64,000 nucleotides of DNA from NCBI RefSeq assembly GCF_016405885.1, contig NZ_JAEKGC010000008.1, forward strand, positions 62,001 through 126,000, written 5' to 3'. Of the stretch, positions 32,889 through 59,065 are shown piece by piece. This stretch comes from Arthrobacter sp. MSA 4-2 (GTDB lineage Bacteria > Actinomycetota > Actinomycetes > Actinomycetales > Micrococcaceae). Below the pieces are notes generated by a model that saw nothing but the letters and a program-made list of their open reading frames with translations, made no database searches and was not told where the DNA came from. The first letter of the stretch is position 1. Each line of letters begins with the position of its first letter. Made by a program: the position numbers and the translations under genes.

Positions 32889-32970
32889 GCCCGAATGGCG
32901 GAATTGGCAGACGCGCTGCACTCAAAATGCAGTATCGAAAGGTGTGTGGGTTCGAGTCCCACTTCGGGCA
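32889..32970 (+). tRNA. tRNA-Leu (anticodon CAA)
   Basis: Acceptor GCCCGAA/TTCGGGC, D-stem GCG/CGC, anticodon stem CTGCA/TGCAG with loop CTCAAAA (anticodon CAA), an extra arm as expected for leucine, and T-stem GTGGG/CCCAC are all visible. CCA is not encoded. It decodes UUG. Its T-loop and 3' end recur three times downstream, so it looks like the integration target of the island. Confidence 0.96.
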
Positions 32971-33232
32971 CATGTTTTCCCTGGTCAGAGGCCCTTTTGC
33001 TCTCTGACTGTGGACAGCCGCCGCAGTTCTGCGGTCCGGGTGCCGGTTCCCGTGGCTGTTTGGGAGTTCTCCTGGAGGCTGGGTGCCGCCTTTCTGTCGC
33101 AAGCCCGGCTTGGGCTTTCTTACTACTTCATGGGGGAGCGGCGCGGTAGCTACATGACTGCGGTGAGGATTTTTTGGCCTGGTCATCGTCCTCGCAGAGA
33201 GCAACTCCGGCGGAGCAACCAGCGAGAGTTGA
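32950..33232. repeat. att-like repeat, copy 0 (tRNA side)
   Basis: Starting in the T-loop of tRNA-Leu, this sequence recurs at 47.15, 50.57 and 58.83 kb. It contains a 7-bp hairpin GTCAGAG/CTCTGAC (32984-33008), then TGTGGACA (33009-33016), then the conserved line TTACTACTTCATGGGGGAG near 33120, and fades at about GAGAGTTGACGAC. This copy lacks the upstream block of the other three because the true tRNA lies there. Confidence 0.88.
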
Positions 33233-33527
33233 CGACATGAGCACCGGATCACCCACGGATGCCTCATCGAACGAAATGAAGGAGAAATCTTCAAACCAGT
33301 GTCTCCCGCAACCCGCCAGCACGAGGCTTGTCCTCCAATGGGCTCGTTCACCAAAGCGGTGGGCTCTTGGGACAGTGGAGGTCCTTGATGCTCCGAAGAT
33401 TTTGGTGTTAGAGGCTGGCAGTGTGTGGTTGGCTGGTCCCAGGTCTCCATAGCAGCCTGGTGGGCCGCGGCGCTTCGTGCCGCGGGCATTTGGTTGGACG
33501 GGATGGGTGCCAGAAGGTCTCGCTCTG
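33233..33527. other. No confident gene between att copy 0 and the sigma factor gene
   Basis: A short open frame starts at ATG 33237 and runs about 70 codons to 33452 with no recognisable domain and no good ribosome binding site. I do not call it. Confidence 0.4.
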
Positions 33528-34163
33528 ATGATCACCGCCCAGTTGCCGGTCGTGTCTGCTTCCTCCCGCTCTTTGTCCGCGCCTGCGGTTGCCGGTGAAG
33601 CCCGGGAGGTGCGTGGGGTCGAATCGCTGCTGTTGGGTGTCGCGCACGGTGATGCGCGGGCTTTCAGCGAGTTGTATGCGCGCAGTGCTCCCCGGGTCTA
33701 TGATCTGGTGCGCAGGGTTGTGCTGGATGAGGAGATGAGCGCCGAGACGGTGCAGGAGGTGTTCCTTGGTCTTTGGCAGGGAGCAGCAGCCCGCTTCGAT
33801 CCTGCGCTGGGGTCCGGAATGTCATGGATTGTCACGCTCGCGCACCGCCGGGCGGTGGATAAGGTCCGCGCCGAGGCATCCCACCGGGTCCGGGACCTGC
33901 GGTGGGGTATCCGGAACCAGGACGTCGCTTACGACGGCGTTGCCGATGCTGTGATTCAGCAGGCCGAGACCGAGGCGGTCCGGGCCTGCCTCGGCACGCT
34001 GTCGGCGGTGCAGCGTGAGGCGATCCATCTTGCGTACTACGCGGGCATGACCTACGTCCAGGTCGCCGCCCATCTGGGGATCCCTGTACCGACCGCCAAA
34101 ACGCGCATTCGGGACGGCATCGGACGCCTCAGGTCGTGTCTGGGCGATCAGCCCGACAGGTAG
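33528..34163 (+). CDS. ECF sigma factor, SigK/ECF19-like
   Basis: This protein of 211 residues has region 2 at about 30-100 (AFSELYARSAPRVYDLVRRV, then EEVFLGLW with Val for the usual) and region 4 at about 140-205 (LSAVQREAIHLAYYAGMTY). The SigK-type segment AHRRAVDKVRAE joins them. In SigK systems an anti-sigma factor (RskA) is normally encoded next door; the 490 bp downstream contain none. The start is the ATG at 33528 with GAAGG upstream; a longer GTG start at 33477 is possible. It is the first gene of island segment A. Confidence 0.85.
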   Translation: MITAQLPVVSASSRSLSAPAVAGEAREVRGVESLLLGVAHGDARAFSELYARSAPRVYDLVRRVVLDEEMSAETVQEVFLGLWQGAAARFDPALGSGMSWIVTLAHRRAVDKVRAEASHRVRDLRWGIRNQDVAYDGVADAVIQQAETEAVRACLGTLSAVQREAIHLAYYAGMTYVQVAAHLGIPVPTAKTRIRDGIGRLRSCLGDQPDR

Positions 34164-34654
34164 GGCCCAGAATTCACGGTGCCGGCAACGCCCGGCGGGG
34201 GGACGAGGTGGCCGCCGACGCTGCCGCAGGGCGGGCAGAGGTTAGTGGAGGTCGCTGGCGCTGGTGTATCGGTGTCCCGTGCTTCGTGCCGGGTTGTCGG
34301 GTGTGGCGGGAGTGCTCAGTTGCTGCTGGGTGGTGAAGTTGCCTTGAGGGCGTACGGCCGGGCAGCGGTTCGGGTCCGTGCGCGGTGAGACGTTACGGCA
34401 GGACCGGACCGGCCCCGGGCAGAACCTGATCCTGAATCGGCCGGAGGAGGTTGGGGTTCATCGCCCGGTGGACGTGATGGCAACATCCCGCATGACCTCA
34501 GAGTTCCTGGAACAGATCCAGCTGAGCCCCGGTGCTGGATTGGTGCCGGTCGTGGTGGGTGAGCTGATGGGCGCGATCGACGTTTTCCTGCGAGATGACC
34601 ACGACCTTGCGGTTCATCCGTGACGGGCGAGGATTTTCCAAGGCGACTGATCCT
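34164..34654. other. Gene-free stretch where an anti-sigma gene would be expected
   Basis: Several short open frames overlap here on both strands, none with a domain, transmembrane helix or zinc motif that would suggest an anti-sigma factor. It may be decayed DNA. Confidence 0.45.
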
Positions 34655-35431
34655 TTATCCGGATGCGTCGGGTGCCCTTCGGATCGGAGCGAAGGTGGGG
34701 ACGGGGTCTTTGGTGAGGAAGTCGGTGATGAGCAGGTTGCACAGTTCCGGCTTCTCGACGAGCAGGCCGTGAGAGGTCCCGGGGACGACGGCCAGCTCGG
34801 CCTTCGGGAGTGCCCGGTACATCGCCGCGGCGTGCTCAATGGAGACCTCATCGTCATCGCCGATCATGATCAGCGTCCTTGTCGGCAGCATCGCCAGGTC
34901 CTGGGCGGTGTAGGTCGGACCGGTGGCGTGCATTTGATCGAGTTTTCCCATCACGACGTCGAAATGCCCGGCGCCATCGGGGGAGAGCTCGCCGTATCCC
35001 TGGCGGATGAAGTCGGGCACTTCCCCTGTGTCGGAGCCGTTCATCCAGCCGGAGCGGTTGAACACGCCGGCGACGCAGACAAGACGGCTGACAAGGTCGG
35101 GACGCCGCATTGCTACGGCGAGGGCAACGACCGCCCCGTCGCTGCACCCGACGAGGGACGCCGGCCCGGCGACATTGGCCTCGAGGAACGCGATGGCGTC
35201 CTCGGCCATCGCCTCGTAGGACATTGGCCCGTCCACGTCCGGTGTCCGGCCGTGGCCACGGCGCTCGGGGGTGTACACACGGAAGTAGGGGCTCATTCCG
35301 TCGACCGTCATCTGCAGGGAGCGGGCATCGACCCCGCCCGGGTGCAGCAGCACGGCTGGAGGGCCCTGCCCATACTCGGCGAACCATGTCTGCTCGACGC
35401 GGAACGGCTTTCCGGGTGTCGGTCCGTTCAT
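34655..35431 (-). CDS. Alpha/beta hydrolase
   Basis: This 258-residue protein has the usual hydrolase core. The oxyanion segment VLLHPGGVDAR is at about 28, the nucleophile Ser in the elbow GCSDG at about 95, the acid in IGDDDEVS near 195 and the His in GTSHGLL near 222. The substrate is unknown. GAGGAGA stands 6 bp before the ATG. It stands alone, convergent with the sigma gene. Confidence 0.85.
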   Translation of the reverse strand: MNGPTPGKPFRVEQTWFAEYGQGPPAVLLHPGGVDARSLQMTVDGMSPYFRVYTPERRGHGRTPDVDGPMSYEAMAEDAIAFLEANVAGPASLVGCSDGAVVALAVAMRRPDLVSRLVCVAGVFNRSGWMNGSDTGEVPDFIRQGYGELSPDGAGHFDVVMGKLDQMHATGPTYTAQDLAMLPTRTLIMIGDDDEVSIEHAAAMYRALPKAELAVVPGTSHGLLVEKPELCNLLITDFLTKDPVPTFAPIRRAPDASG

Positions 35432-35639
35432 CAGTGTCTCCTCATCCAGATAGATACATCCTGCCTCTGCCCCTCACGCCTACCAGAGGCTCAGCAGCCT
35501 CGACCAGCCACGCACTTCATCCAAGCCCTTTCCTGCGCATCCCGTAAACGGATTGCTTGCGGGCGGGGCACCTCGAATGGGAGATGGGAGGTCGATGATG
35601 ATTCTCCTACTGGTGCGTGGGCATGGTCTCCGGCGCCCA

Positions 35640-35702
35640 GCCAGCTCCGTCTAGTCAGGAGTTTGGGAAACCCGGGGCGGTCCCCAGAGTCGGTATCGCT
35701 AA
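35640..35702. repeat. Island motif: GCTCCGT..GGTCAGGAGT-like block, copy 1
   Basis: The block CAGCTCCGTCTAGTCAGGAG followed by a GGGGCGGTCCCC stretch resembles blocks at about 47565-47630 and 59095-59145. All three lie downstream of an att-like repeat, at 2.7, 0.4 and 0.25 kb. Confidence 0.55.
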
Positions 35703-35720
35703 GGTAGGTGCAGCATTGGA

Positions 35721-35954
35721 GTGTTCAGTGGTGCAAAGATGGGGGTTGAGATGGTGGTAACAGCTGAGGATAGTTTGAATCCGGTGATTCCGAATGCGCG
35801 GGAGCTCCGCGCGCAGGGAGTCGGTGCGCTTGCTGTAGCCCCTGTCGTGGTGGCCCTCATCAGCATCTCGCGGTCCCGCCACCTAACCAGAATGACGCAG
35901 GCTGTATGGGTTCTGATTGTGCTCGCTTTTCCTATCCTCGGTCCGGCTTCCTGA
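35721..35954 (+). CDS. Short PLD-nuclease N-terminal-like membrane protein, possibly truncated
   Basis: This protein of about 77 residues has two hydrophobic helices: VGALAVAPVVVALISI and AVWVLIVLAFPILGPAS. The pattern ending in PILGP matches the small PLDc_N domain found in two-helix actinobacterial proteins. In that domain one expects a few more residues (FVVGR); these are encoded directly after the TGA stop, so the stop looks premature. The start is uncertain (35721, 35739 or 35751). Confidence 0.5.
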   Translation: MFSGAKMGVEMVVTAEDSLNPVIPNARELRAQGVGALAVAPVVVALISISRSRHLTRMTQAVWVLIVLAFPILGPAS

Positions 35955-36484
35955 TTCGTCGTTGGCCGGTGTAGCGCCGCACCCACCTCGAGCCACCTGT
36001 ACAGCATTGCGCCAACGACCGGGAACCACGACGGCCGATAGGCGCTCTGAGGAATCGCTTAGCGGGCGGTTTTCCGGGCGGGCCAAACACGACCTGGGCA
36101 GTTCAGCTTCCGCCCTTGGCGGGCAATCCCGCCTTATGGGCGGGCGTTGAGGTTGTAGATTTCGTTCTTTTCGGCGACCGTGAGGTCCGAGCCCGCCAGG
36201 AGGTCCTGCAGCACCGCGGATTTTCCCGCTATGTACCGGCTGATGTCCATGTTCGGCTCGGCTGCGAGCCGGAGCTGCGGTGTCCCGTGTGTTGGCGGCT
36301 GGCCTAGTGGCGGACGGTGTCCCGAACGTCGGTGTCCCAGCGACGGTGACTTCGGCCGTGTGGTGTTCGAGGACTGCATCCAAGCAGGGGCTCTGGCCGG
36401 TATTAACCTGTAGCGCATCTCCTTGATGCGGCAGTTGGCTTGAAAGGGCGTACGGCTGCGGCCTTCCGGGCGGGACGTTCCCGG
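35955..36484. other. Mostly gene-free stretch with a possible small remnant
   Basis: On the minus strand a frame ending at 36134 could encode about 38 residues from ATG 36250 (DISRYIAGKSAVLQDLL, then DLTVAEKNEIYNL), which reads like real protein but matches nothing I know and has no clear ribosome binding site. The rest shows no gene. Confidence 0.35.
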
Positions 36485-36715
36485 TCAGGGGACCGCCGGG
36501 ACGGGTGCGGTGCGTTGCCGCGCGAGGAAGGCGGGGGCGAGGACAGCGCTGAGGGCGAAGAGTCCGACGAGGGGCCAGAGCGCCGTGAGGATGTCGAAGC
36601 TCGCCGCGAGGAACCCGATGAGGGGCGGGCTGATCAGGTTGGCGACGTAGCCCAGGCCCGCCTCGGCCGATACCCGGGCCCCGTCGTTTCGCCCTTCCGC
36701 CGCTGCGGACATGCC
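36485..36715 (-). pseudogene. MFS transporter C-terminal remnant
   Basis: About 75 residues on the minus strand read as the last two helices of a major facilitator protein: LGYVANLISPPLIGFLAASF, then ALWPLVGLFALSAVLAPAFL. The upstream 10 helices are absent. Confidence 0.65.
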
Positions 36716-36749
36716 GAGCGGGAAACCCCTGGACACCCCCACGGACCAT

Positions 36750-36846
36750 AGGACCACCCGTGGCACTCGGAGTGGCCGGCCTGGCCCTGATCGCGGGGAT
36801 GGTTGTCCTGACCCGGCGGAACCTGACCACCGCGCTGAAGAGGTGA
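36750..36846 (+). pseudogene. Second MFS-like C-terminal remnant, opposite strand
   Basis: About 30 residues, VALGVAGLALIAGMVVLTRR followed by NLTTALKR and a stop, look like the final helix and tail of a transporter. It points away from the minus-strand remnant. Confidence 0.4.
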
Positions 36847-37036
36847 CTGGGCCTCTGCGTCGGTGGGTGGGTGTAGCGAATACGTTCGATTGGGCTGCAT
36901 CCCTTCTCGGGACCAGGAAGGGATCTGTCGTGCCCGGAGCCAGACCAGGGAGTGGAGCAACCCTCATGAGCTTCGGCTTCGAATAGGTCATGATGTCTTC
37001 GGATCCTTCTGCGGCGTCGCCTATGAGGAGGGTTGC

Positions 37037-37690
37037 ATGTCCACCGCATTTACCTGGTCTCGCAGCACAATGTTCACTGTTGTCTTGGGCGTCGGGCTGT
37101 CGCTGACAGCCTGCGATGGCGATTCAGCGGCCCCTGTCAGCGAACCGACCACTTCGGAGGCTCCGTCGATGACGGCTTCGGCGGAACCGACGGCCGAGCG
37201 CGTCGAGCCGACGCCGGCGTCGTCGGATGCACCGGCCGCGAACCTGCAGATTCCGGCGCCGCCCGCAGAGGCGGAGGAGGAGTCGCGGGAGGGGCTGGAA
37301 GCGTTCACTGCGCATTGGCTGAAACTGCTGTCGTATTCCTACGAGGCGAACGACCTCGAGCCCCTGCAGGCGGTCAGCGACCCGGCGTGCACCTTCTGCA
37401 AGGATGTCGGAACGGCCATGGCGCAGACCTACCAGGTGGGGTGGGCTACCGGAGGAGCGACCACCCTGACGGACTTCACCACCGATTTCACCCCTGATGC
37501 CGACGGCGCCTACACCGCGGACATCACGACCACCCAGACGGAAATCTTCTACTTCTCCGATGAGGGGTGGCTTGGATCGAGTGAGTCCAAGCCGGACACA
37601 CCGCACCTGGTTACCGCCCGCTACATCGGTGTCGGATGGCAGATGATCAACTACTCGACACCACCTATCACCGAGGCGCCGACGGGATAG
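37037..37690 (+). CDS. DUF6318-like lipoprotein
   Basis: This 217-residue secreted lipoprotein has a signal peptide with lipobox LTAC (Cys at about 25), then a Ser/Thr/Pro-rich linker to about 75. The C-terminal domain (about 80-215) contains LQAVSDPACTFCKDVG, the cysteine-pair motif common in DUF6318 proteins of Arthrobacter. Function unknown. GAGGAGGG precedes the ATG. It is a single-gene unit; the CmtR-like gene follows after 53 bp. Confidence 0.8.
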   Translation: MSTAFTWSRSTMFTVVLGVGLSLTACDGDSAAPVSEPTTSEAPSMTASAEPTAERVEPTPASSDAPAANLQIPAPPAEAEEESREGLEAFTAHWLKLLSYSYEANDLEPLQAVSDPACTFCKDVGTAMAQTYQVGWATGGATTLTDFTTDFTPDADGAYTADITTTQTEIFYFSDEGWLGSSESKPDTPHLVTARYIGVGWQMINYSTPPITEAPTG

Positions 37691-37715
37691 GGGCTGCGTA
37701 AACAGCGCCTCGTTT

Positions 37716-37735
37716 AGTACATGATTGTGTGTACT
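37716..37735 (+). promoter_or_regulatory. Candidate operator of the CmtR-like repressor
   Basis: AGTACA and TGTACT form a perfect inverted repeat with an 8-bp spacer, 8 bp upstream of the GTG start of the regulator. The placement fits autorepression of the regulator and the transporter behind it. Confidence 0.65.
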
Positions 37736-37743
37736 GTTGCGGT

Positions 37744-38088
37744 GTGGAAACTCTTGCCCAGCACTCGGTCCTCGCGCGGTTCGGATACGCCCTGTCGGAT
37801 CCGGTGCGCGCCCGGGTCTTGTTGGTTCTGCGGGACGCTCCGTCCTACCCGGGTGAGCTGGCTGAACTGGCCGGAGTGAGCAAGCAGCGCCTGTCGAATC
37901 ATCTGACGTGCCTGCGCGGCTGTGGGCTTGTCGTCGCCGTTCCCGAGGGGCGGCGGGTCCGGTATGAGCTGGCGGATCGGAAGCTCGGTGACGCGCTGAC
38001 CGCACTGCTCGGGGTCGTGGCCGTTGGCGACGCCGAGTGCTGCTGCACCACCCGGGCGAACCACATCGAGGGAAAGGCTTGCTGCTGA
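37744..38088 (+). CDS. ArsR/SmtB-family metal sensor, CmtR-like
   Basis: This 114-residue winged-helix repressor probably releases DNA on binding a soft metal. The recognition helix region VSKQRLSNHLTCLRGCGLVV has two cysteines at the positions of the CmtR Cd/Pb site, and a Cys cluster AECCCTT plus KACC lies near the C-terminus. RRVRYELAD is the wing. The GTG at 37744 is preferred to the one at 37729, which lies inside the operator. The stop overlaps the transporter start by 1 bp. Confidence 0.85.
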   Translation: METLAQHSVLARFGYALSDPVRARVLLVLRDAPSYPGELAELAGVSKQRLSNHLTCLRGCGLVVAVPEGRRVRYELADRKLGDALTALLGVVAVGDAECCCTTRANHIEGKACC

Positions 38089-38987
38089 TGAGCACCCACA
38101 CCTCACCCGCATCGGTGCAGATCGCCCGTCCAGCGCCGAGTGTGCAGCGGCGGGCGGTCCTGTCCCGGCGGATCCGTCTTCTCGTCGGCGCGACGATCAC
38201 CTACAACGTTATCGAAGCGGGCGTCGCGATCAGCGCCGGCACGGTGGCGTCCTCAAGCGCGTTGATTGGGTTCGGCCTGGACTCGATCGTGGAGGTTCTC
38301 TCCGCGGCCGCCGTGGCCTGGCAGTTCGCCGGGCGCGACCCGGAGGCCCGGGAAAAGACCGCCCTGCGCCTGATCGCCTTTTCCTTCTTCGGCCTCGCCG
38401 CGTTCGTGACCTTCGACGCCGTCCGCACCCTGCTCGGCGCGTCCGAACCCCAGCACTCACTGGTTGGAATCGTTCTGGCCGCGGTGAGCCTGGCGGTCAT
38501 GCCGTTCCTGTCCTGGGCGCAGCGCCGGGCCGGTCGTGAGCTCGGGTCCCGGTCCGCTGTCGCGGACTCCAAGCAGACCCTGCTGTGCACCTACCTGTCC
38601 GGGGTCCTGCTGGTGGGTCTGCTGCTCAACAGCACCCTCGGGTGGTCCTGGGCCGACCCGGTCGCCGCCCTCATCATCGCCGCCGTCGCCATCAAAGAAG
38701 GCCACGAGGCATGGAAGGGCGACTCCTGCTGCGCACCATCCTTCGGAAACCTCGACGACGACCAAAGCGTTGACACCTGCGGAAGCGCCCCGGGCGGCGG
38801 CTCGGAATCCTGCTGCAGCACTGGCACCACGACAGGCGCGCCCGTAGCAGTGACGAACACCTCCGTAGAGCCTGCTGCGTTGACACTGACGGTGCGGCCC
38901 GCAGGAACCAACACCCCGGAAAGCAGCCCAGCAGATCCTGAATCGAAAACAGCTGATGCGTCCTGCGCCTGCTGCACACATCACTAG
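38088..38987 (+). CDS. Cation transporter with Cys-rich tail
   Basis: This 299-residue CDF-like membrane protein has about six hydrophobic helices in residues 30-215. Metal-site-like segments are GFGLDSIVEVLSAAAVAW and WADPVAALIIAAVAIKEGHE. The C-terminal 85 residues are hydrophilic with many cysteines (GDSCCAP, ESCCSTG, ASCACCTHH), suited to bind thiophilic metal ions. Coupling to the CmtR-like sensor suggests efflux of cadmium, lead or a similar ion; this is inference. Confidence 0.85.
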   Translation: MSTHTSPASVQIARPAPSVQRRAVLSRRIRLLVGATITYNVIEAGVAISAGTVASSSALIGFGLDSIVEVLSAAAVAWQFAGRDPEAREKTALRLIAFSFFGLAAFVTFDAVRTLLGASEPQHSLVGIVLAAVSLAVMPFLSWAQRRAGRELGSRSAVADSKQTLLCTYLSGVLLVGLLLNSTLGWSWADPVAALIIAAVAIKEGHEAWKGDSCCAPSFGNLDDDQSVDTCGSAPGGGSESCCSTGTTTGAPVAVTNTSVEPAALTLTVRPAGTNTPESSPADPESKTADASCACCTHH

Positions 38988-39078
38988 AGCACTCCAGCAA
39001 ACCCTGATCCACCAATGGTCCCCTGCAATCGGCCGGGAACCAGCAGACCATGCAGTCAGTTGACGAGGAGACACCACC

Positions 39079-39798
39079 GTGCCGACCCCCGCCCCAGCTC
39101 CCAACACGACCCCTGACACGAAGCAGGGCCTGAGCCTGCAGAACCGGATAACGCTCGGCCTACTCGCCGCTGTTGCTCTCGTCGTCGGCTTGGCGATTTT
39201 CTTCAACAGCCTCGGCAACGACCCCTCGCAGGCTGAGGGCACCGACACCGGCACCGGCGCGGGCACGGCAGAGGTCGTCCGTGAGGACAGCCACCGCCTG
39301 TCCCAGGCGTCGGACGAGAAGGCCATCCTGGTCGAGTTCCTCGACTTCGAATGCGAAGCCTGCCTCGCCGCGTACCCGCTCGTGGAAGAGCTCTCCGAGG
39401 AATACGGGGAGAACCTGACCGTCGTCTCCCGGTACTTCCCGCTGCCCGGGCACCCCAACTCCGAGACTGCGGCCGCCGCCGTCGAGGCAGCAGCCCAGCA
39501 GGACAAGTTCAAAGAGATGCACGCCCGCATGTATGAAACGCAGACCGAGTGGAGCCACACCAACGAGGACCGGTCACCGGTGTTCCGCGGCTATGCCAAG
39601 GACCTGGGCCTGGACATGGCTGCGTACGATACGGCGATCGCAGACCCGGCAACCATGGAGCGAGTGAACATCGACAAGAGCGACGGCATGGCCCTGAACG
39701 TCGAGGGAACCCCGACGTTTTTCCTCGACGGCGAGAAGATCCAGCCCGCCACCGCCGAGGAGTTCCGCAGTCTCATCGAAACCGCTATCGCGGACTGA
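39079..39798 (+). CDS. Membrane-anchored DsbA-like thioredoxin-fold protein
   Basis: This 239-residue protein has one transmembrane helix (about 25-43) and an extracytoplasmic DsbA-type domain. The active site is CEAC in FLDFECEACLAAYP near 95 and the cis-proline loop is VEGTPTFFLDG near 212. It would introduce disulfides into exported proteins, re-oxidised by the VKOR encoded next. The start is GTG at 39079 with GAGGAG upstream. Confidence 0.9.
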   Translation: MPTPAPAPNTTPDTKQGLSLQNRITLGLLAAVALVVGLAIFFNSLGNDPSQAEGTDTGTGAGTAEVVREDSHRLSQASDEKAILVEFLDFECEACLAAYPLVEELSEEYGENLTVVSRYFPLPGHPNSETAAAAVEAAAQQDKFKEMHARMYETQTEWSHTNEDRSPVFRGYAKDLGLDMAAYDTAIADPATMERVNIDKSDGMALNVEGTPTFFLDGEKIQPATAEEFRSLIETAIAD

Positions 39799-39828
39799 TT
39801 CATGACTCCCGGCGAAGGACCACCCACC

Positions 39829-40473
39829 ATGTCGCACCGAACGACGAATAACATCTCCTCGATCCAGGAACCCGCCCAGGATGACGCGGCCTCAGTGCCC
39901 GGATTCGCACGCCGGGTCCCGTTCGGGATCATGTTTGTGGCCGCCGGTGTCATCGGGTGGGTTGCGGCCGGGATCCTGATCCTCGAGAAGCTCGAGTTGT
40001 ACCGGGACCCGGACCATGTCACGAGCTGCGACATCAACCCCTGGGTGTCCTGCGGGCAGGTCATGGAGACATGGCAGTCCGAGCTCTTCGGCTTCCCCAA
40101 CCCCTTCATCGGCCTCGTCGGCTTCACCGTCATCATCACCACCGGCATGGCACTGCTCGCCGGAGCCCGGTTCAGCCGCTGGTACTGGGCCGGCCTGCAG
40201 GCAGGCATCACGCTCGGAGCCGTGTTCGCCACCTGGCTGTGGAGCCAGGCCCTCTTCGACATTTACATCCTGTGCCTCTACTGCATGATCGTCTGGGCGG
40301 CGATGATCCCCCTGTTCATCCTCACCACCGTCCGCAACATGGTTCACGGCATCATCCCCGCACCCGCCGGCCTCACCCGCGGGCTCGCAGCGTGGGTCGG
40401 ACCGATCATCGTCCTCACCTACATCGCCGTCGCCGCCTCCGTGTTCTTCCGCTTCCTCCACGTCTTCACCTGA
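39829..40473 (+). CDS. Vitamin K epoxide reductase family protein
   Basis: This 214-residue membrane protein has four to five helices. It carries the conserved loop cysteines in SCDINPWVSCGQVM and the active CxxC in LCLYCMIVW. Bacterial VKORs re-oxidise DsbA-type proteins and pass electrons to quinone. It sits 30 bp behind the DsbA-like gene. I chose ATG 39829 (CGAAGGA upstream); ATG 39802 is possible. Confidence 0.9.
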   Translation: MSHRTTNNISSIQEPAQDDAASVPGFARRVPFGIMFVAAGVIGWVAAGILILEKLELYRDPDHVTSCDINPWVSCGQVMETWQSELFGFPNPFIGLVGFTVIITTGMALLAGARFSRWYWAGLQAGITLGAVFATWLWSQALFDIYILCLYCMIVWAAMIPLFILTTVRNMVHGIIPAPAGLTRGLAAWVGPIIVLTYIAVAASVFFRFLHVFT

Positions 40474-40555
40474 GACTCCACACCGCACCGGACCGGCAGC
40501 CGCCCACCCGCGCTTTCCCACACACCGCCGATCATCACGGAAACCGAGGCCAACG

Positions 40556-41580: not shown

Positions 41581-41650
41581 GATGTGTCGGCACCGCCGAT
41601 CTCTCCCATCACCTGCGCGGCCCAGGCCGCCGTTGGAAGGAATTCACACA

Positions 41651-42619: not shown

Positions 42620-42668
42620 CAGGCCGTTCCACCGGTACGACCAGAGCTCGAGGAGAACGGTTCCCGTT

Positions 42669-48729: not shown

Positions 48730-50455
<1,726 letters not shown>

Positions 50456-50456
50456 G

Positions 50457-50850
50457 TGTGGACAGTGTCCACACTTTTGGTCTCGGTCTGGGCCGTACCG
50501 GTGCCGGACTGGGCCGGATTCTGGATGTTTACCGGGGAGTGGCGGATTTCCAGGGCCTGGAGTCCGGTTCGAGTCCCACTTCGGGCACATGTTTCCACTA
50601 GTCAGAGGCCCTTTTGCTCTCTGACTGTGGACAGCCGGCGCAATTCTGCGGTCCGGGTGCCGGTTTGGTGGCTGTTTCGAAGTTTTCCTGGGGGCTGGGT
50701 GTCGCCTTTCTGTCGCGAAGGCCGGTTGGGCGTTCTTACTACTTCATGGGGGAGTGGCGGGGTAGCTGCATGACTGTGGTGGGAATTCTTGACCTGCTCA
50801 CCCTCCTCGAGCAGCTCAGGCGAAGCAGCTACCGGGAGTCGACACCCCTG
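50457..50850. repeat. att-like repeat, copy 2
   Basis: It starts with the perfect palindrome GTGGACAGTGTCCAC (50458-50472) and GGGCCGTACCGGTGCCGGAC. The tRNA-Leu 3' core is at 50567-50587, identical to the tRNA end. The hairpin, CTGTGGACAGCC and TTACTACTTCATGGGGGAG line follow as in the other copies. It closes segment B and opens segment C. Confidence 0.92.
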
Positions 50851-50988
50851 AGCACCATCAAGACAAGCGCACGTAGGTTGCTGCGACGTCCGGTGTGGTC
50901 GCTGGCGGCTATGGGGAGCCGGGCGTCCCCGTCGGAACGGAAAGGGATGCGCAGGGGAAACTTGGGGGTAGCGCACCGGCCCGGTTTT

Positions 50989-51693: not shown

Positions 51694-51796
51694 AATGTGT
51701 TCCTCTCGTTGGCCGCTCCATTCAGGAGTTGCCGGATTAGGGTGTTTGGCTGGACGGCTGGGGCGACTGTGCAGCCCCAGCCGTCCTCGTGTTGCG

Positions 51797-52639
51797 TCAA
51801 TGGGTTCCGTCGATGGCCCGGTCGATCAGGTCGACTACCTTGGACGGACGGGACATCATGGGCACATGGGAGCTCTTGACCTCCACAGTGGTGGCGCCGG
51901 CCCGATCTGCCATCACCCGTTGCGCCTCCAGGGGGATGATGTTGTCATTGCGGGCGACCATGTACCAGGAGGGAATTTCCTTCCAGGCGGGCGCGCCCGA
52001 GGGCGTGACGAGTGAGGCCAGGGCGCCGGGCCGCTGGCTGACGCCCATGAAGTCGGTGACCTGCGCGGGGAGATCCTGGGCGAACAGGCGGGCGAAGTGG
52101 GCCGGGTCGATGTAGGCGTCGGCGTCGCCTTCCTGGGCGCCGGGGAAGGGCCGGATCACCAGGTGGTTGGTAACTTCCGTCTGGCCGCCGCCAAGGGTGT
52201 TCGCGGCCTGTACCGTCTCCTTCCCGTCCAGTGCGTAGGCGGCAACGTAGACCAGGGCTTCGACGTTCGGATTCCCGGTGGCGGCGTTGGTTATCACCGT
52301 GCCGCCGTAGGAATGTCCGATGAGCACGACGGGCCCTTTCATGGTGGCCAGGTAGCTTTGCAGGTAGGCGCTGTCGTACTGGATCCCGCGCAGCGGATTG
52401 GAAACGGCGTGCACCGGGTATCCCGCGTTCAGGTAGCGGCCGGCTACTTCCGCCCATCCTGAGGAGTCGGCGAAGGCCCCATGAACGAAGACGAGGGTGG
52501 GTTTTTGCTCATCGTGGCCCGAGGTGGCGGGCAGGGAAGCGGCTGCGGGTGCGGCGATGACGGCCGCCGCGATGATTGCGGCCAGGAGTGACCGGAGGCT
52601 GAGCCACCGTTTGATGCGGTGGAGGACGGGCGTGATCAT
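51797..52639 (-). CDS. Secreted alpha/beta hydrolase
   Basis: This 280-residue protein has a signal peptide (arginine-rich start, hydrophobic stretch about 16-36, AAASLPA cleavage region). The hydrolase core shows FVHGAFADSSGW, nucleophile Ser in GHSYGGTVI (about 127), acid in ARNDNIIP and His in SSHVPMM. The ATG at 52639 with AAGGAAG upstream overlaps the stop of the metallo-hydrolase gene, indicating an operon. The substrate is unknown. Confidence 0.88.
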   Translation of the reverse strand: MITPVLHRIKRWLSLRSLLAAIIAAAVIAAPAAASLPATSGHDEQKPTLVFVHGAFADSSGWAEVAGRYLNAGYPVHAVSNPLRGIQYDSAYLQSYLATMKGPVVLIGHSYGGTVITNAATGNPNVEALVYVAAYALDGKETVQAANTLGGGQTEVTNHLVIRPFPGAQEGDADAYIDPAHFARLFAQDLPAQVTDFMGVSQRPGALASLVTPSGAPAWKEIPSWYMVARNDNIIPLEAQRVMADRAGATTVEVKSSHVPMMSRPSKVVDLIDRAIDGTH

Positions 52640-53478
52640 GGTGATCTTCCTTCGGGGCTGGTTCCGGTGGTGGCGGGCCGGGTTGATCTGAGCGGGATGG
52701 GGACGGAGCGGCCGGGGGGCAGCCAGAGGACCTCCGTAACCCCATCGGGTGCGACCCGGAGATGTTTGAGGGCGAGATCGCGGCCTTCGCTGAAGTGGCT
52801 CCAGCCTTCGTAGTGGACTGGTATCGCCACCTGGGGGCGGATGAGTTTGAGCAGCCGGGCCCCCTCTCTGGCGTTCATGGTGTACCTGACCGGTCCGGTA
52901 ATCCCGAACCGGACAGCGCCCAGGTGCAGCAGCGCGACGTCGATCTCGAACCGCCGCGCGACGTCCTTGAGGCCGCGGTAGAGGACGGAGTCCCCCGACA
53001 TCCAAAGGGCGATGGTGTCCGCCCCGGGGCGCTGGAGTGCGAAACCGAGAGTCTGGCCCACGACAGGCAGGCTAAGGGCGGGCCCGTGACGGCCCGGGGT
53101 GGCGATGATGCGAAGCGGTGAGATACCGGGATTGCGCAGCGTCATCTGCTCCCAGGGGCGAAGCCCATGGGTATTGGGCAATGCCAACCGTTTCGCACCA
53201 CTTCTGGTGGTCAATACCGTTGGCACGGACGGGAGCATCTGGCGTCCGAGGCTGTCCAGGTTGTCCGCGTGGTGATCGTGTGAGAGCAGAACCGCGTCGA
53301 CCGGCCCGAGGTCGGCGGGCTGCAGCGCCGGGCGGCCGGTTTTCACCGATGACGTGCCGAGTCCAAAGCGGTACCGGCGGCCCGGATCATCAAAGGTCGG
53401 ATCGGTGAGGATCCTCCACCCGTCCAGTTCGATCAGGGCCGTCGGTCCGCCGATGTGGGTGATCCGGAGCTGTTCCAC
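52636..53478 (-). CDS. Metallo-beta-lactamase-fold hydrolase (UlaG-like)
   Basis: This 280-residue protein has the metal motif HDHHADN at about 66-72, further ligands in ATPGRHGPA and WMSGDSVLY, and a C-terminal His in IPVHYEGW. It resembles the UlaG/MBL-fold group that opens lactones or hydrolyses phosphoesters. It starts at ATG 53478 and overlaps the downstream secreted hydrolase. Confidence 0.9.
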   Translation of the reverse strand: MEQLRITHIGGPTALIELDGWRILTDPTFDDPGRRYRFGLGTSSVKTGRPALQPADLGPVDAVLLSHDHHADNLDSLGRQMLPSVPTVLTTRSGAKRLALPNTHGLRPWEQMTLRNPGISPLRIIATPGRHGPALSLPVVGQTLGFALQRPGADTIALWMSGDSVLYRGLKDVARRFEIDVALLHLGAVRFGITGPVRYTMNAREGARLLKLIRPQVAIPVHYEGWSHFSEGRDLALKHLRVAPDGVTEVLWLPPGRSVPIPLRSTRPATTGTSPEGRSP

Positions 53479-53493
53479 ACTCCCGGGACCTGA

Positions 53494-54333
53494 CTATTGG
53501 TGGTGTTGGGTGTCACGGGCGGCCGCATGCTGCAGCGACCAGGTGAGGGCGTAGTCCGCGACTTCTTCCCAGCCCTCCTGGCTGACGATGCGGTGGGTGC
53601 GTCCCGGGAACTCGACGCGTTCGACGACCGACGGTCCCTGCGCGTATTTTTTGAGCGCCGCTTTTTGGATCGCCGGCGGGGCAACGTGATCGATGCCGCC
53701 GGAGATGAGCAGGAGCGGGGCCCGGTCCGGCTTGCGGAAGTCGACTTTGGTGATGCCGGTCTTCTGCTTTGGCAGGGAGAGCACGCCTTCGAAGAAGACC
53801 CGGTTCACGGAGTTGATGGCGCTTAATTCCCACTCCCTGTCGGATTCGGCTCGGCTGAGGTCGTTTCCGAAGGTGTAGTGGAAGTGGCGTTTGGTGAACC
53901 GGCTGGCCTTATTAATCCGGAACGGATTCGACAGGATCGGCAGGCCGGTTCGCAGCGTCGAGAACGGCAAAGCGAGCACCCCTGCGGGCTGTCCGGGTTC
54001 GACTCCGACCCCGGCGATCCCAAGTCCGCGGTCAAGGAGCATCTGAACGAAGATTCCGCCGAAGGAGTGGCCGATGATGATCGGTTGCTCGGGCATAGCC
54101 CGGATGATCCGGTCATAATGGTCGACGATCTCTTTGATGCCGACGCCTTCAAGGGCACTGGGGTCGTAGCGGACGCTGTCCGGGGACCGGTCATCGACAC
54201 CCGGCCAGCCCGGAACGATGACCTCATGGCCGAGACCGCGGAATCTTGCGGCCCAGGTGGCCCAGCTGGACGGGGTCATCCATAGTCCATGGATAAGGAC
54301 GATCGGTGGTTTGGGTTCAGTCGGCAGGTTCAT
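53494..54333 (-). CDS. Alpha/beta hydrolase
   Basis: This 279-residue cytosolic protein has the motifs VLIHGLWMTPSSW, nucleophile Ser in GHSFGGIFV (about 93), Asp in SGGIDHVAPP and His in GRTHRIVS. It lies 15 bp upstream of the metallo-hydrolase gene on the same strand, so they are probably co-transcribed. Confidence 0.9.
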   Translation of the reverse strand: MNLPTEPKPPIVLIHGLWMTPSSWATWAARFRGLGHEVIVPGWPGVDDRSPDSVRYDPSALEGVGIKEIVDHYDRIIRAMPEQPIIIGHSFGGIFVQMLLDRGLGIAGVGVEPGQPAGVLALPFSTLRTGLPILSNPFRINKASRFTKRHFHYTFGNDLSRAESDREWELSAINSVNRVFFEGVLSLPKQKTGITKVDFRKPDRAPLLLISGGIDHVAPPAIQKAALKKYAQGPSVVERVEFPGRTHRIVSQEGWEEVADYALTWSLQHAAARDTQHHQ

Positions 54334-54356
54334 TTCGGGTGCCTTTCACTGCGGGC

Positions 54357-55184
54357 TCAAGAACGGATGAAGTCGAGGAGGTCACGAGAGAGGCGTTCCA
54401 TTTCGGTGTCGGGCAGCGCATGACCGGCGTTGTCATAGACCTTTAGGTCGGCGCCGGAGATGAGCTTCGCGGAGCGCTGGCCGCCGACCTCGAACGGAAC
54501 GATCTGGTCGTCGTCGCCGTGAATGACGAGGGTGGGCACGTTGATCTTGGCCAGGTCCTCGCGGAAGTCGGTTGCCGAGAAGGCTGCGATGCATTCAAAC
54601 GCGGCGCGGTGGCCCGAGGCCATTCCCTGCAGCCAAAAGGCGTCCCGTATGCCCTGCGGGACGTCGCCGCGCCGGTTGTGACCGAAGAACGGGCCGTCGG
54701 CCAAGTCCCGGTACAGCTGGGAGCGGGACGCGCGTTCCCCTGCCCGGATATTGTCGAACACCTCCACCGGCAGGCCTTCGGGATTGTCATCGGTCCGCAC
54801 CATGAGCGGAGGAACTGCTGAAACGAGCACGAGCTTCGCGACCCGTGCCGGGCCGTGCCGGCCCACATAGTGGGCAACCTCCCCTCCACCGGTGGAGTGG
54901 CCCACGAGAGTGACGCCGTTGAGGTCGAGCGAGTCCAGTACCACGGCAAGGTCGTCGGCGTAGGTGTCCATTTCATTGCCGGCCCAGGTCTGCGTCGAAC
55001 GGCCGTGCCCGCGGCGGTCATGGGCAATGACGCGGCATCCGTTTTCGGCGAGGAAGAGGGCCTGGCTGTCCCAGGCATCGGCGTTCAACGGCCAGCCGTG
55101 GCTGAGCAGGACGGGGGTTCCATCGGCCGGTCCCCAGTCCTTGTAGAAGATCTGCGTTCCATCTTCGGTGGTCACGTAGCTCAT
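54357..55184 (-). CDS. Alpha/beta hydrolase, chloroperoxidase type
   Basis: This 275-residue protein has the motifs [16 protein letters not shown], nucleophile Ser in GHSTGGGEV (about 98), Asp in HGDDDQIVP and His in NAGHALPD. It is of the same general type as the segment B hydrolase at 48730. The start is the ATG at 55184 with GAAGGA upstream. It heads the minus-strand hydrolase cluster, 23 bp before the next gene. Confidence 0.92.
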
Positions 55185-55440
55185 GGAGATGTTTCCTTCA
55201 GTTCGGCGCCAGCAGGGTCCCTTCCGAAGATCCCACGGCGAGGGAACAACGCGCATCGCGTGCGGTGCACAGTCCGAAGACGCACGTCGCGCTTCGGGGC
55301 TACAGGCTTGGACTGACCAGCTGCCCACTTACTGCGCGGCACCCTACGCGATTGTGGCAGGAGCACTACGAACCCATCCAGGCCTGAAGTGGTGGCGGTG
55401 TTCTCTGAGGCCGCGGCGGTCCGCAACCAGGCGGCGCAGC

Positions 55441-58209
55441 TCAGCCGAGGTTGATTTTGTGAAGCTGCCTCCGGGAAGTCACACCGAGCTTTCGAAACAC
55501 CTTCCGCAGGTGGTAGTCCACGGTGTGGGAGCTCAGGAACAGTTCGGCCCCGATGTCGGCGTTGGTGTTGCCCGCTGCAGCAAGTCTTGCAACGGACAGC
55601 TCCTGCGGCGTAAGTGTCGCAGCGAGGGTCTGTTTGTTGTGCCCGAGTGTTTCTCCGAGAGCGGCAAGTTCCCGGCGCGCCCGTGCCGACCAACCCAGCG
55701 CGCCAAGCCGTTGGAATATCTCAAACGCATTGAATAGGTGAGCGGCGGCTTCGGTCCGGCGGCGCCGGCGGCGAAGCCATTCCCCGTACAGCAGATGTGT
55801 GCGCGCGGCATCCATTTCCAGAGCGGGCCCGGTAAGCAATTCCAGGGCGCGTTCGAAGTGCGGGGCGGGTGTGTCCTCGTCGAGATGGGTCATGCTTCGT
55901 TCTTCAAGCCCTTCCGCCCACCTACTCCTGGAGTGGTGGCTCTCCTCCCGCAAGCGCAGAAGGAGAAGGTTCGCCGATTTATGATCGCCGGCGCGTGCCG
56001 CACATTCAATAAGGTCAGGCAGGTACAAGGCTCCGGTGAAGAACGGGTCATCATGCCTGATTTGGCGGCCGGCGATCCACGCTTCGACATAGCGGCTTTC
56101 CGCTGCGCGGAGCAGAAGGGTCCCGACGAGGCGGGAGGCACCGCTTAAGCCATATCCGAAAGTTCGTGCCTCGGCGGAGACCTCGTCCTCCCTGGTAATT
56201 GATTCATCGTCGAGCCATCCCCGGAGTACCGGCAGGGACGTGACCATGTCGGCCCACACCTTCGGAAGTCCCATGAAAGAGATAATTTCCGCTGCGCTGT
56301 TGAGACGCTCGCTGCCCTCACGGATCCTGCCTTGCCGCATATTGAGGTACGCGCCGAGGAGAAGGATGCGGCAAAGGACAAGGGTGGCGCCGAGGTTTCG
56401 TGCAGCGTGTTCCGCGCGCTGAAGAACCGCTTCGCTTGATTCCGGGTCCCGAAGAAGGCACGCGGCATATGCAACGGAAATGAAGGACTGCAGGATGTCC
56501 TCGTCGGGAATTCCAGGTGCTGATGCCTGCTCGATTGTCGCGCGGACGAGGGAGGCCGCCGCCGCAGGCCCGTCAAGGACGAGGGTGCTCAAAGCGATGA
56601 GGGCCTGAGTGGGCAGATCGCTACCCGGGGCCATTTCGCAGATTCGACGCGCTTCCTCGGCAACCTCCCGGGAGGACGTCCCCTGCACCATCTCGTCGGC
56701 CTGAACCAGCGCCCAGTAAGCGCTGGCAATGGCCTGTTTGGCCCGCGCCGGGGCGGTGGAACGGAAGAGCCGGGCCGCAACCAACAGTCGTTGAGGGCGA
56801 TGCGCGTAGATAGGACCCGGCACGGGCGCAAGAGTGTCCAGATCGCAGCTGGCCATGAAGAGCCGCCCTCGAGCCAAATCGTCGAGTCCCTCGGGCTCCA
56901 ATGCCCCGAGCAGCGCTCCTGCCTGCGCAGGTGCGCCTGCCGCGATTGCCGATTCCGCGGCAGCCAGAAGGCGCAGGTTCTTGACTGTTTGGGCGGAAGT
57001 GAGGGCCGCTGAACGAACGAGCAGGTTCGTTCGAGTCATATAGCCGCCGCGCTTCATTGCCATATCCGCTGCTTCCTCAAGCTTGTCTGCAACCTCATCG
57101 TCCGGTCCGATGGTGGCCGCCGCCCGGTGCGTCACCCACCTGTAGGTATCACCCCGCCGCTCGGCTGCGTGCGCGAGTTGCAGGTGCATGGCTCGGATGT
57201 CATGGCTGGGCGAACCGTTGTATATGGCTGAACGCACGAGCGGATGGCGGAACGTCACGGTCGAATTGACGCGAACCAGACCGGCCAGTTCTGCTGCGCG
57301 TGAAGCATTATCCCGGAGACCCAAGGCATCGCTGGCAGCTGTGATCGCCTCAAGGTCCCCCTCTGGCTCGGTGGCTGCTGCCAGCAGCCACATCTGTGTC
57401 TCCTGCGGCAGCTGGCGGCCCTGCCTGAGGTAATGCGCTTCCAGGTGCTTCCCCAGCGGTACCGGCTCGGGAAGAAGATCCTCACCGCGGAGCTGGCGTT
57501 CCGTGAGGTCCGTAAGCAGATCCACCAGGGCGAGTGGGTTGCCCCCTGTCGCGTCGACGATCTGGTCAGCGACACGCGGGTCCAGTGTCTGTGGGGATGA
57601 GGTCTCGAGCAGCGTCAAGGCGTCGGCGTGGCTGAGGCCCGCGAGGGTCCGTGCGGGGAGGTCGTCCAAAGGAGTTGGCTCCGCGTCATTGCTCCGGACG
57701 GCAAACAACAGCACGAGCCGTTCGGCCAGGATGCGCCGCGCTACGAAGGCGAATGCGTCCAGTGACTCGCGATCCACCCACTGCCCATCGTCAATAAAGC
57801 ATACGAAGGGGGCTTCATCCGAGACTCGCGCAAGGAGATTCAACAACCCAAGGCCGACCAAGGATTTGGAGGCTGGAGGGCCGCTTGCCAGCCCGCACGC
57901 TACGAGGAGCGCTGCGCGCTGGGCTTCAGTGAGGTCATCAAGGGCCGCCCGGTGGGCCAGGATCATTCTCTGGAGCGCAGCATACGGAAGGTCAGCTTCT
58001 GCTTCGACCCCGGCTATCAGCTTCATCGGGAGCTGTGGATGCTCGGCCAGGACTGAGGATATGAGGAAGGTTTTGCCGACACCGGCGTCTCCACGTAGGA
58101 CCCCGGCTGCTCCGTGGCCTTCAACCGCTGCCCTGAGAAGACCAGTGAGCCAGGCTTTGTCGGCGGATCGTCCAATAAGGCTGATCGGCGGCTCCAGCCT
58201 GTCCATCAA
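55441..58209 (-). CDS. Large LuxR-family ATPase regulator (LAL/MalT type)
   Basis: This 922-residue protein has an N-terminal AAA-like domain with Walker A LRGDAGVGKTF (about 39) and Walker B VCFIDDGQW (about 136). A long helical, TPR-like middle (about 350-840) would sense a ligand. The C-terminal LuxR helix-turn-helix reads LSVARLAAAGNTNADIGAEL and HTVDYHLRKVFRKLG. It is oriented like, and lies 256 bp upstream of, the hydrolase cluster, so it is the likely activator; that link is inference. Confidence 0.9.
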   Translation of the reverse strand: MMDRLEPPISLIGRSADKAWLTGLLRAAVEGHGAAGVLRGDAGVGKTFLISSVLAEHPQLPMKLIAGVEAEADLPYAALQRMILAHRAALDDLTEAQRAALLVACGLASGPPASKSLVGLGLLNLLARVSDEAPFVCFIDDGQWVDRESLDAFAFVARRILAERLVLLFAVRSNDAEPTPLDDLPARTLAGLSHADALTLLETSSPQTLDPRVADQIVDATGGNPLALVDLLTDLTERQLRGEDLLPEPVPLGKHLEAHYLRQGRQLPQETQMWLLAAATEPEGDLEAITAASDALGLRDNASRAAELAGLVRVNSTVTFRHPLVRSAIYNGSPSHDIRAMHLQLAHAAERRGDTYRWVTHRAAATIGPDDEVADKLEEAADMAMKRGGYMTRTNLLVRSAALTSAQTVKNLRLLAAAESAIAAGAPAQAGALLGALEPEGLDDLARGRLFMASCDLDTLAPVPGPIYAHRPQRLLVAARLFRSTAPARAKQAIASAYWALVQADEMVQGTSSREVAEEARRICEMAPGSDLPTQALIALSTLVLDGPAAAASLVRATIEQASAPGIPDEDILQSFISVAYAACLLRDPESSEAVLQRAEHAARNLGATLVLCRILLLGAYLNMRQGRIREGSERLNSAAEIISFMGLPKVWADMVTSLPVLRGWLDDESITREDEVSAEARTFGYGLSGASRLVGTLLLRAAESRYVEAWIAGRQIRHDDPFFTGALYLPDLIECAARAGDHKSANLLLLRLREESHHSRSRWAEGLEERSMTHLDEDTPAPHFERALELLTGPALEMDAARTHLLYGEWLRRRRRRTEAAAHLFNAFEIFQRLGALGWSARARRELAALGETLGHNKQTLAATLTPQELSVARLAAAGNTNADIGAELFLSSHTVDYHLRKVFRKLGVTSRRQLHKINLG

Positions 58210-58716
58210 GCCCCAATTCCAGCGCGAGGAGATTGTCGTTTGAGAGAACGATAGCCAATGTCACCGACTCGGGAGGGAAAGTTACTGCCACATTTCGGCC
58301 TACGGCGCAGATTCGCTCAGAGAGGTGCAGGCAGTGGGCTCGAAGGTACAAAGGGACCCCGCAGCCGTGCGAATCCGGGCGCACAGCGCATATCAAGAGT
58401 GCTCCTGCCATAGAGTTCAGCGGCGGCTCGGGCAAATCAACAGCAGCAGAATTCGAGAGCGAAGCAAGTTGGGAACGTAGGTGCCAAAGTACTCCGCGGC
58501 CTCGACACTCGTGCCGTGCCGCAGGAGCAAGGGCAGGGGAGGACGGGGGCTGACCGAGGCTCGTCGGCGTTCGCCGGTGACGACCGATAGCCCCTGGCGG
58601 ATCGGATGTGAATACGCCCGGTTCGACAAGCTCGCTTCGTCCTGGAAAGAAGTGCCGCACCCTGTCCATACGGGGTGTGGCTCGTCGGGGAGGCCTTCGG
58701 CGGGGAGAAACGGAGG
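58210..58716. other. Gene-free stretch upstream of the LuxR-type gene
   Basis: About 500 bp with no credible gene; it must hold the promoter of the minus-strand regulator gene. It ends at att copy 3. Confidence 0.5.
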
Positions 58717-59065
58717 TGTGGACAGTGTCCACACTTCGAGCCTCGGACTGGGCCGTACCGGTGCCGGACTGGATCGGATCCGAGATGTTTTCGGGGGAGT
58801 GGCGGATTTCCGGGGCCTGGAGTCCGGTTCAAGTCCTACTTCGGGCACATGTTTCCACTAGTCAGAGGACGTTCTGCTCTCGGACTGTGGACAGCCGGCC
58901 CAGTTTTGCAGTCCGGGTGCCGGGTCTGGTGGCTAGGTTGGGGGTTTGCCGGGGTGGGTGCCGCCTTTCTTGCGCGAAGCCCGGGTTGGGCTTTCTTACT
59001 ACTTCATGGGGGAGTGGGGGTGTAGCTATATCACTGTCGTGAGGTTTTTGGCTGGCTATCCTCCT
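58717..59065. repeat. att-like repeat, copy 3 (most diverged)
   Basis: The palindrome GTGGACAGTGTCCAC is perfect (58718-58732) and GGGCCGTACCGGTGCCGGAC follows. The tRNA core at 58827-58847 carries two substitutions relative to the tRNA end, and the downstream hairpin and line are also more diverged. It closes segment C. Confidence 0.88.

Follow-up and report, generated by a model that had tools for sequence, protein, structure and literature searches.

Behind a single tRNA-Leu(CAA) gene of Arthrobacter sp. MSA 4-2, accessory DNA is stacked in segments separated by copies of an attachment (att) site. The locus is probably a site-specific accretion island of CIME-like, integrase-less elements, which would be served in trans by a family of integrases borne by phages and islands. 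The window, i.e. the whole stretch of 64,000 nucleotides analysed, corresponds to C34:62001-126000 of the 3.59-Mb, 35-contig assembly (G000, the window genome); coordinates without a contig or genome prefix are those of the window. Its features are collected in Table 1.

The att core consists of the last 23 nt of the tRNA gene (32949-32971), with the sequence GGTTCGAGTCCCACTTCGGGCAC. In a pattern scan the exact sequence was found at 32949, 47153 and 50566 and, with two mismatches, at 58826, giving core spacings of 14,204, 3,413 and 8,260 bp; no core repeat appeared in 100 shuffles of the sequence. The preliminary description, made from the sequence alone, had the 3' end of the tRNA repeated at three further places and segments of 14.2, 3.4 and 8.3 kb between them, and both statements are borne out. 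Copies 2 to 4 also share about 110-136 bp upstream of the core, a stretch which the tRNA copy lacks. Within this stretch lies a palindrome of 19 bp, at 47044 (with one base off), at 50456 and at 58716; on the + strand of the 64 kb these are also the only places with a loose form of it. The inner copies have the form P-core-P' and the tRNA copy the form tRNA-core-P'. Serial insertion by a tyrosine integrase into the 3' end of a tRNA gene leaves tRNA-core-P' at the tRNA and P-core-P' inside, and the arrangement is thus as expected for serial site-specific integration. Attachment sites flank each element and hold their core in common with the target gene, save for a few copies that lack a P arm. 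Similarity downstream of the core extends over about 250-300 bp in most copies of the window genome and up to about 470 bp in some, and these copies are mostly 80-90% alike. The repeat unit first described was accordingly real in its core and P' arm; its extent of about 260 bp behind the core falls short for some copies, and the P arm had been overlooked. The P' arm was also considered as a small gene, which was ruled out since indels break the frames and no ORF is held in common. An Rfam scan of 32700-59200 returned the tRNA as its sole match.

Table 1. Features of the tRNA-Leu(CAA) locus in the window
Feature	Position	Strand	Evidence or content
tRNA-Leu(CAA), integration target	32889..32971	+	ARAGORN; Rfam RF00005; core pattern
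P' arm, segment 1, non-coding	32972..33253	+	hairpin-like GTCAGAG..CTCTGAC; arm box TGTGGACA at 33009-33016
Segment 1 cargo, 14.2 kb core to core	33254..47041		Pfam; plasmid DNA matches
P arm, segment 1 (copy 2)	47042..47149	+	palindrome GTGGGGACAATGTCCACAC at 47044-47062
att core copy 2	47153..47175	+	core pattern
P' arm, segment 2	47176..47453	+	box TGTGGACA at 47213-47220
Segment 2 cargo, 3.4 kb core to core	47454..50426		alpha/beta hydrolase and ORFs without Pfam match
P arm, segment 2 (copy 3)	50427..50562	+	palindrome GTGTGGACAGTGTCCACAC at 50456-50474
att core copy 3	50566..50588	+	core pattern
P' arm, segment 3	50589..50860	+	box TGTGGACA at 50626-50633
Segment 3 cargo, 8.3 kb core to core	50861..58686		Pfam
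P arm, segment 3 (copy 4)	58687..58822	+	palindrome GTGTGGACAGTGTCCACAC at 58716-58734
att core copy 4, two substitutions relative to the resident tRNA	58826..58848	+	core pattern
P' arm, segment 4	58849..59065	+	box TGTGGACA at 58886-58893
Segment 4 start	59066..64000		NAD(P)-binding protein, YCII, sigma factor with DUF6596, UDP-glucose/GDP-mannose dehydrogenase

The GC content of the segments is 63-66%, and that of the backbone 70.4%. By Pfam, segment 1 encodes a sigma-70 factor, an alpha/beta hydrolase, cation efflux, DsbA-like and VKOR proteins, a PstS/C/A/B-like transporter and a protein with a response-regulator DNA-binding domain, and segment 3 an SDR, hydrolases, a metallo-beta-lactamase fold and a LuxR-type regulator with an AAA domain. 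Pfam detected no recombinase, integrase, excisionase, relaxase, transfer, replication or phage gene among the 30 window ORFs scanned, nine of which have no Pfam family, and for these ORFs the earlier remark that no integrase, excisionase or replication gene is visible holds. Family PF00589 matches at four places in the whole window genome, none within the array, and no integrase remnant was detected in its array at E<=1. The genome-wide hunt proposed earlier, for a tyrosine recombinase matching the repeat, yielded those four places only and no match at E<=1e-60 to P0001, the same-site integrase of Arthrobacter sp. Bz4 discussed below. The absence of integrase and transfer genes, on the evidence of the 30 ORFs and the genome-wide PF00589 search, agrees with CIMEs. 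Assignment to ICEs or IMEs was rejected, as the scanned ORFs include no integrase, relaxase or conjugation gene and the array contains no PF00589 match; by gene content the window segments are also not prophages or satellites, since the Pfam scan of the 30 ORFs revealed no phage structural or hijacking genes. A hidden recombinase or excisionase was sought among ORFs within 3.5 kb (1.5 kb for 30 loci) of the sites in 87 site windows. The 45 largest ORF clusters were inspected, and the candidate was dropped: clusters drawn from at least three labels represented att DNA, chromosomal genes upstream of the tRNA, or genes of few genomes, and no shared mobility gene was among them.

The array continues beyond the window. 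Further att copies lie at C34:141794, 174410, 183919 and 187519, the third without a recognisable P arm and the fourth with only a partial P' arm, and seven intervals of 3.4-32.6 kb together cover 92.6 kb of the contig. Segment 4 measures 21.0 kb core to core and ends at C34:141794, outside the window. Additional copies occur on contigs C8 and C17, and the joining order of C8, C17, C34 and C35 is presumptive. The polA gene of the window genome is on C35, on the same strand as, and 58 kb from, an orphan P-arm fragment (C35:177206-177297), which is perhaps the worn far end of the island. The preliminary description had divergence from the tRNA rising with distance, the most diverged copy lying farthest away; over the longer array this trend is not significant (Spearman rho -0.6, n=6, p=0.21). 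Within segment 4, C34:136004-137098 comprises two adjoining 549-bp stretches that are 99.8% identical, the result of a recent tandem duplication or an assembly effect, and a diverged copy of the stretch (about 84%) is present at C34:109619-110502.

Among relatives the site is found both bare and filled. Within the genus, 8 of 38 genomes, including the window's own, match past the bare core at E<1e-20, and the remaining 30 match over 23-44 bp only; three of those 30 (G005, G020 and G032) have a second short match, which marks a diverged site. In two of these the diverged P-core copy closes a small element beginning at tRNA-Leu, of 1.4 kb in G005 (C1:1674378-1675770) and of 2.0 kb in G020 (C7:39660-41691), the latter keeping the first 62 or so integrase codons. 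In the family sample, 32 of 295 genomes match at E<=1e-8. A P-core model built on sequence only (R1) matches 222 of 395 family genomes at E<=1e-3, bare tRNAs included, and about 80 of the 395, counted by eye, have a best E<=1e-20. At the level of the order, 10 of 396 genomes match at E<=1e-8, all of them Micrococcaceae and belonging to 2 of 109 genera. A pattern scan of named genomes yielded at least 117 stretches, and the 80 matches listed come from Arthrobacter, Pseudarthrobacter, Paenarthrobacter or 'Micrococcaceae bacterium'.

Of the thirteen genomes searched fully, ten do not belong to the window's genus; nine of these ten consist of one or two contigs, and G263 of four. In these ten array-bearing genomes, and likewise in the closed genome G028, every copy detected at E<=1e-6 is on one strand downstream of tRNA-Leu. 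The arrays of the ten span from 51 kb (G352) to 387 kb (G387, where the last copy is weak, E 5e-9), and the 68 intervals of the ten genomes and the window contig measure 1.3-193 kb, with a median of 20 kb. Copies without a P arm were also seen in G009 (27625) and G028 (2141880). The only exception seen to the single strand is the draft genome G046, in which two P-core copies separated by 6 kb (C15:66063 and 72022) differ in strand. tRNA-Leu and polA are 1.0 kb apart in G013, G031 and G037 and 4.7-10 kb apart in G025, G004 and G020; the gap widens to 60 kb in G032 and to 166-534 kb in 12 genomes that bear an array or an integrase (G352, G360, G168, G205, G354, G366, G028, G281, G251, G267, G368 and G387). 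These figures do not include G263, whose polA is 786 kb off on the opposite strand, G000 and G009, where the two genes are on separate contigs, and G234, where the tRNA was not located. Between the last copy and polA there are 58-197 kb without detected copies, and the array thus accounts for only part of the interval. The window genome and G009 have blocks in common, mostly at 83-95% identity and a few at 70-74%, in scrambled order, and G033 carries the segment 4 junction with about 2.8 kb behind it at 93-97% identity to the window. Relatives therefore differ in the number of their segments and some have an empty tRNA-Leu site, as had been predicted. Neither of the findings named at the outset as speaking against insertion was encountered: gene order is not identical in all relatives, and repeats were not seen at unrelated sites, the array copies lying behind tRNA-Leu, those on C8 and C17 being unplaced and the fragment on C35 being an orphan.

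The arm sites are under constraint. The 117 sites examined were selected by the pattern GTGTNNACA-N-TGTNNACAC, followed by 80-110 bp and the core; this pattern fixes the other bases of the palindrome and leaves its NN dinucleotides and the spacer free, and 116 of the 117 sites are distinct. The two NN positions are complementary in 106 of the 117, compared with a mean of 47.3 and a maximum of 67 in 10,000 shuffles, a test that ignores kinship although several sites come from one genome. There are three main solutions, GG/CC, GC/GC and TG/CA. The P-arm spacer is 93 bp in 100 of the 117 sites, and 93 sites have a TGTNNACA box in the 110 bp that follow the core (0.06 expected per site). The palindrome looks like an inverted protein-binding site with switched specificity, and the integrase may bind it, recognition of the arms being suggested by adjacency. 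In 69 of 71 copies, chosen by a core-like expression, the core is closer to the tRNA of its own host than to other tRNA variants; this fits exchange with the tRNA, and inheritance could also account for it. Core copy 4 of the window carries GTTCAAGTCC, as do the tRNA genes of G028, G024, G027 and G015, together with a second change that these four genomes lack in their tRNA, and the site may derive from a host with the GTTCAAGTCC variant. Agreement in box type exceeds expectation both within elements (20 of 43, 12.8 expected, p 0.008) and at junctions (21 of 52, 15.0 expected, p 0.03), and box types therefore do not separate elements from junctions.

An integrase is present at the same site in relatives. 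In Arthrobacter sp. Bz4 (G024), a member of the window's genus, and in G032, a tyrosine integrase gene lies directly behind tRNA-Leu with TGTNNACA boxes in between; such boxes separate tRNA and integrase in all six elements inspected (G024, G032, G263, G267, G368 and G387). Relatives of the Bz4 integrase, P0001 (PF00589), were detected at E<=1e-60 in 69 of the 395 family genomes, and many of these relatives are distant. At all 21 loci fetched, an integrase 70-87% identical to P0001 starts about 90 bp behind the tRNA, and coordinates place it likewise in G024, G032, G260, G155 and G098. The same-site integrase matches general phage integrase families. In G032 the element occupies the 49 kb between the tRNA and a P-core copy and encodes portal, terminase, head, tail and tape-measure proteins; chromosomal sequence returns 2 kb past that copy, starting with the gene found next to the tRNA, on its downstream side, in G004 and G025. 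This same-site element is a prophage. The closed, integrase-less array genomes G205, G251, G281, G328 and G350 have two high-scoring PF00589 matches each, presumably XerC and XerD, and G352, G354 and G366 have 3, 4 and 9, all of them outside the array. One further integrase, next to a copy in G028, was set aside, being interrupted and of another kind, presumably Tn554-like.

In the mechanism proposed, tyrosine integrases of islands, and of one prophage, in relatives would recombine attP with tRNA-Leu(CAA), attP being composed of a P arm with the palindrome, the tRNA 3'-end core and a P' arm with TGTNNACA boxes. Each integration would restore the tRNA and add one P-core-P' junction, and the elements would thus stack in a single orientation. 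The window segments, which retain att sites and show no integrase, would be non-autonomous integrative elements, able to move only if a phage, an island or perhaps a plasmid brings in a compatible integrase. Recognition of these arms by the integrase, excision, transfer from cell to cell and the order of arrival would all be parts of this scheme. The part of the earlier interpretation that invoked tandem accretion at the tRNA gene is upheld by the variable segments, the bare tRNAs, the scrambled blocks of G009 and the integrase with like arm boxes. The suggestion that the system works without a recombinase is not, as an integrase family uses the same site in relatives, once in a prophage, and the window genome is merely without it.

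A strong rival is plain accretion followed by decay, whereby every segment brought in an integrase of its own and lost it once newer elements had pushed the segment inward, with no mobilisation in trans at any time; this reading has a sizeable, though lesser, chance of being correct. The tRNA-proximal position of the integrase in all 21 fetched loci favours it, as do the integrase remnants behind P' arms in G020, G032 (1776351) and G281 and the partial genes in G388, 98 kb farther in, and in G113, behind a P-core copy. The evidence on the other side comes mainly from the P' arms. When these were typed with the tRNA core removed, leaving out 17 sites missed by the core expression, 79 copies fell into four families without an intact integrase (29 copies in 11 genomes, 27 in 8, 15 in 8 and 8 in 5). 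One further family includes integrase-bearing sites (13 copies in 7 genomes), and there are also two pairs and single copies. The families are common to several species, and integrase similarity was found in only one of the 79 integrase-less-family windows, at the G281 remnant, these windows being at most 700 bp long, so that an integrase farther in would escape. Independent deletions would hardly leave one identical non-coding P' arm ahead of different cargo, and the array of the window genome shows no remnant at the threshold given above. Five interior copies of G263 carry the P' type of the integrase-bearing family, as decay would have it, and a single ancient loss of the integrase per P' family would still fit. 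With regard to an origin of these CIME-like elements by decay from ICEs or IMEs, remnants are present in some genomes, but the integrase-less P' families are shared between species. On balance the evidence leans towards integrase-less elements that spread as such.

A more far-reaching version of trans mobilisation is possible, though it is put forward tentatively: the Micrococcaceae may possess a tRNA-anchored cassette platform in which families of integrase-less, multi-gene elements have evolved attachment modules of their own and depend for good on integrases that islands, prophages and possibly conjugative plasmids provide in trans. This version builds on the four P'-arm lineages and on arm boxes with at least three dinucleotide specificities.

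It is unlikely that the platform is integron-like, with a resident tRNA-proximal integrase inserting multi-gene cassettes at the inner junctions. The proximal integrase of the 21 loci would suit such a device, integrase-less segments do lie behind an integrase in G263, G267, G368 and G387, and the integrase-free arrays resemble CALINs; yet the P' arm of the integrase-bearing element is mostly of a separate family, and late arrival of integrase-bearing elements would give the same picture.

Phage satellites, in which a temperate phage uses the integrase family and a helper phage mobilises and packages the short segments, appear more doubtful still. The G032 prophage occupies the same tRNA with the same site anatomy, and many of the 68 intervals are phage-sized or smaller. 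Against this, the window ORFs scanned with Pfam include no phage-like gene, some intervals are far above the usual size of a phage genome, the att unit matches none of 50,697 phage records and, by exact pattern, nothing in IMG/VR, and the best phage integrases among the matches listed are only about 38% identical. Dispersed or MITE-like repeats, spread by transposition or homologous recombination unconnected to site-specific integration, are highly improbable: the copies are multiple and alike to the degree such repeats may be, but in each of the ten genomes they share one strand downstream of a single tRNA gene, the P arm is missing at the tRNA, in line with integration, palindrome, spacer and core are constrained, and an integrase resides at the same site.

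Relatives of the integrase (55-63% identical to P0001, in alignments without stops) are also encoded on five plasmid records of Paenarthrobacter and Arthrobacter (CP000476.1, NZ_CP014572.1, NZ_CP136442.1, NZ_CP094492.1 and NZ_CP053546.1), four of which are typed as conjugative; in three of the five the annotated gene start lies inside the match. No tRNA core (up to 6 mismatches), palindrome or arm box was found alongside the five integrase stretches, and 50,000 of the 50,535 bases of one plasmid contain no palindrome and nothing closer to the core than a place with 6 mismatches. Plasmid records gave no match to the att unit. The plasmid integrases could act in trans.

Accretion itself is already known from Streptococcus, Dehalococcoides and Streptomyces; new here are the scale, the spread across a family and the integrase-less elements whose P'-arm lineages (79 copies, four families) are common to several species. 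A literature search, in which subscription journals were poorly covered, returned no account of this island in Arthrobacter or the Micrococcaceae. The attC sites of integrons are folded single-strand sites of small cassettes, unlike the present P-core-P' sites, which contain a tRNA core and delimit multi-gene segments of 1.3-193 kb. Integrons and CALINs are, in the available text on them, cassette arrays with att sites and with or without an integrase, as here (PMC11389934); membership was rejected, the same-site integrase matching general phage integrase families and the sites being P-core-P'.

The closest of the published systems compared, as far as the accessible part of its description goes, is the ssrA array of Dehalococcoides, where islands lie in tandem behind one small-RNA gene with its 3' repeat between them, 15 of 31 islands lack an integration module, cis-mobilizable elements and accretion are suggested, and the islands adjoining ssrA are suggested to be the most recent (PMC3146451). 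That system, according to the same portion of text, involves a serine recombinase (a CcrB homologue) and a 20-bp repeat, with repeats within 100 kb (PMC3146451), whereas the present arrays involve a tyrosine integrase and long P-core-P' sites, reach 387 kb and occur in several genera. CIMEs, in the text available, lack integration and transfer genes, keep their att sites and stack at the same target, as here, and are described as decay products (PMC5704250); in contrast, P'-arm lineages here cross species, which hints at spread as integrase-less elements. In Streptomyces, another actinobacterium, one to three AICE/DAICE elements and a remnant are stacked at tRNA-Arg, and a helper integrase is suggested for defective elements in the portion of the report available (PMC9513070, which cites Zhang and Loria 2017); the view that accretion would be new for an actinobacterium is thus superseded. 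The Streptomyces elements carry traB (same partial source), whereas the window ORFs scanned have no transfer gene and the arrays are longer. The mycobacteriophages Omega and Gaia integrate at tRNA-Leu(CAA), attB-11, and show that phage integrases use this gene in an actinobacterium, albeit in Mycobacterium hosts; the accessible text mentions no arrays (PMC10865867), which the present system forms.

If trans mobilisation at this site is correct, a single tRNA gene explains 51-387 kb of accessory DNA stacked in the ten measured genomes, as well as the metal, phosphate and redox genes of the window, and the locus would show how long arrays can grow from elements unable to move themselves. Arm sites with switchable dinucleotides would constitute a readable code that might predict the pairing of integrases and elements, and the spread of integrase-less islands, an old question, would thereby become directly testable. 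As an additional observation, a small ORF with an MNLRVPE-like start is located 0.2-1.2 kb before the core, ahead of the P arm, in four genomes (G018:C1:297272, G205:C1:1916672, G352 and G368). Its product presumably resembles ribbon-helix-helix proteins, and could be an antitoxin or a directionality factor.
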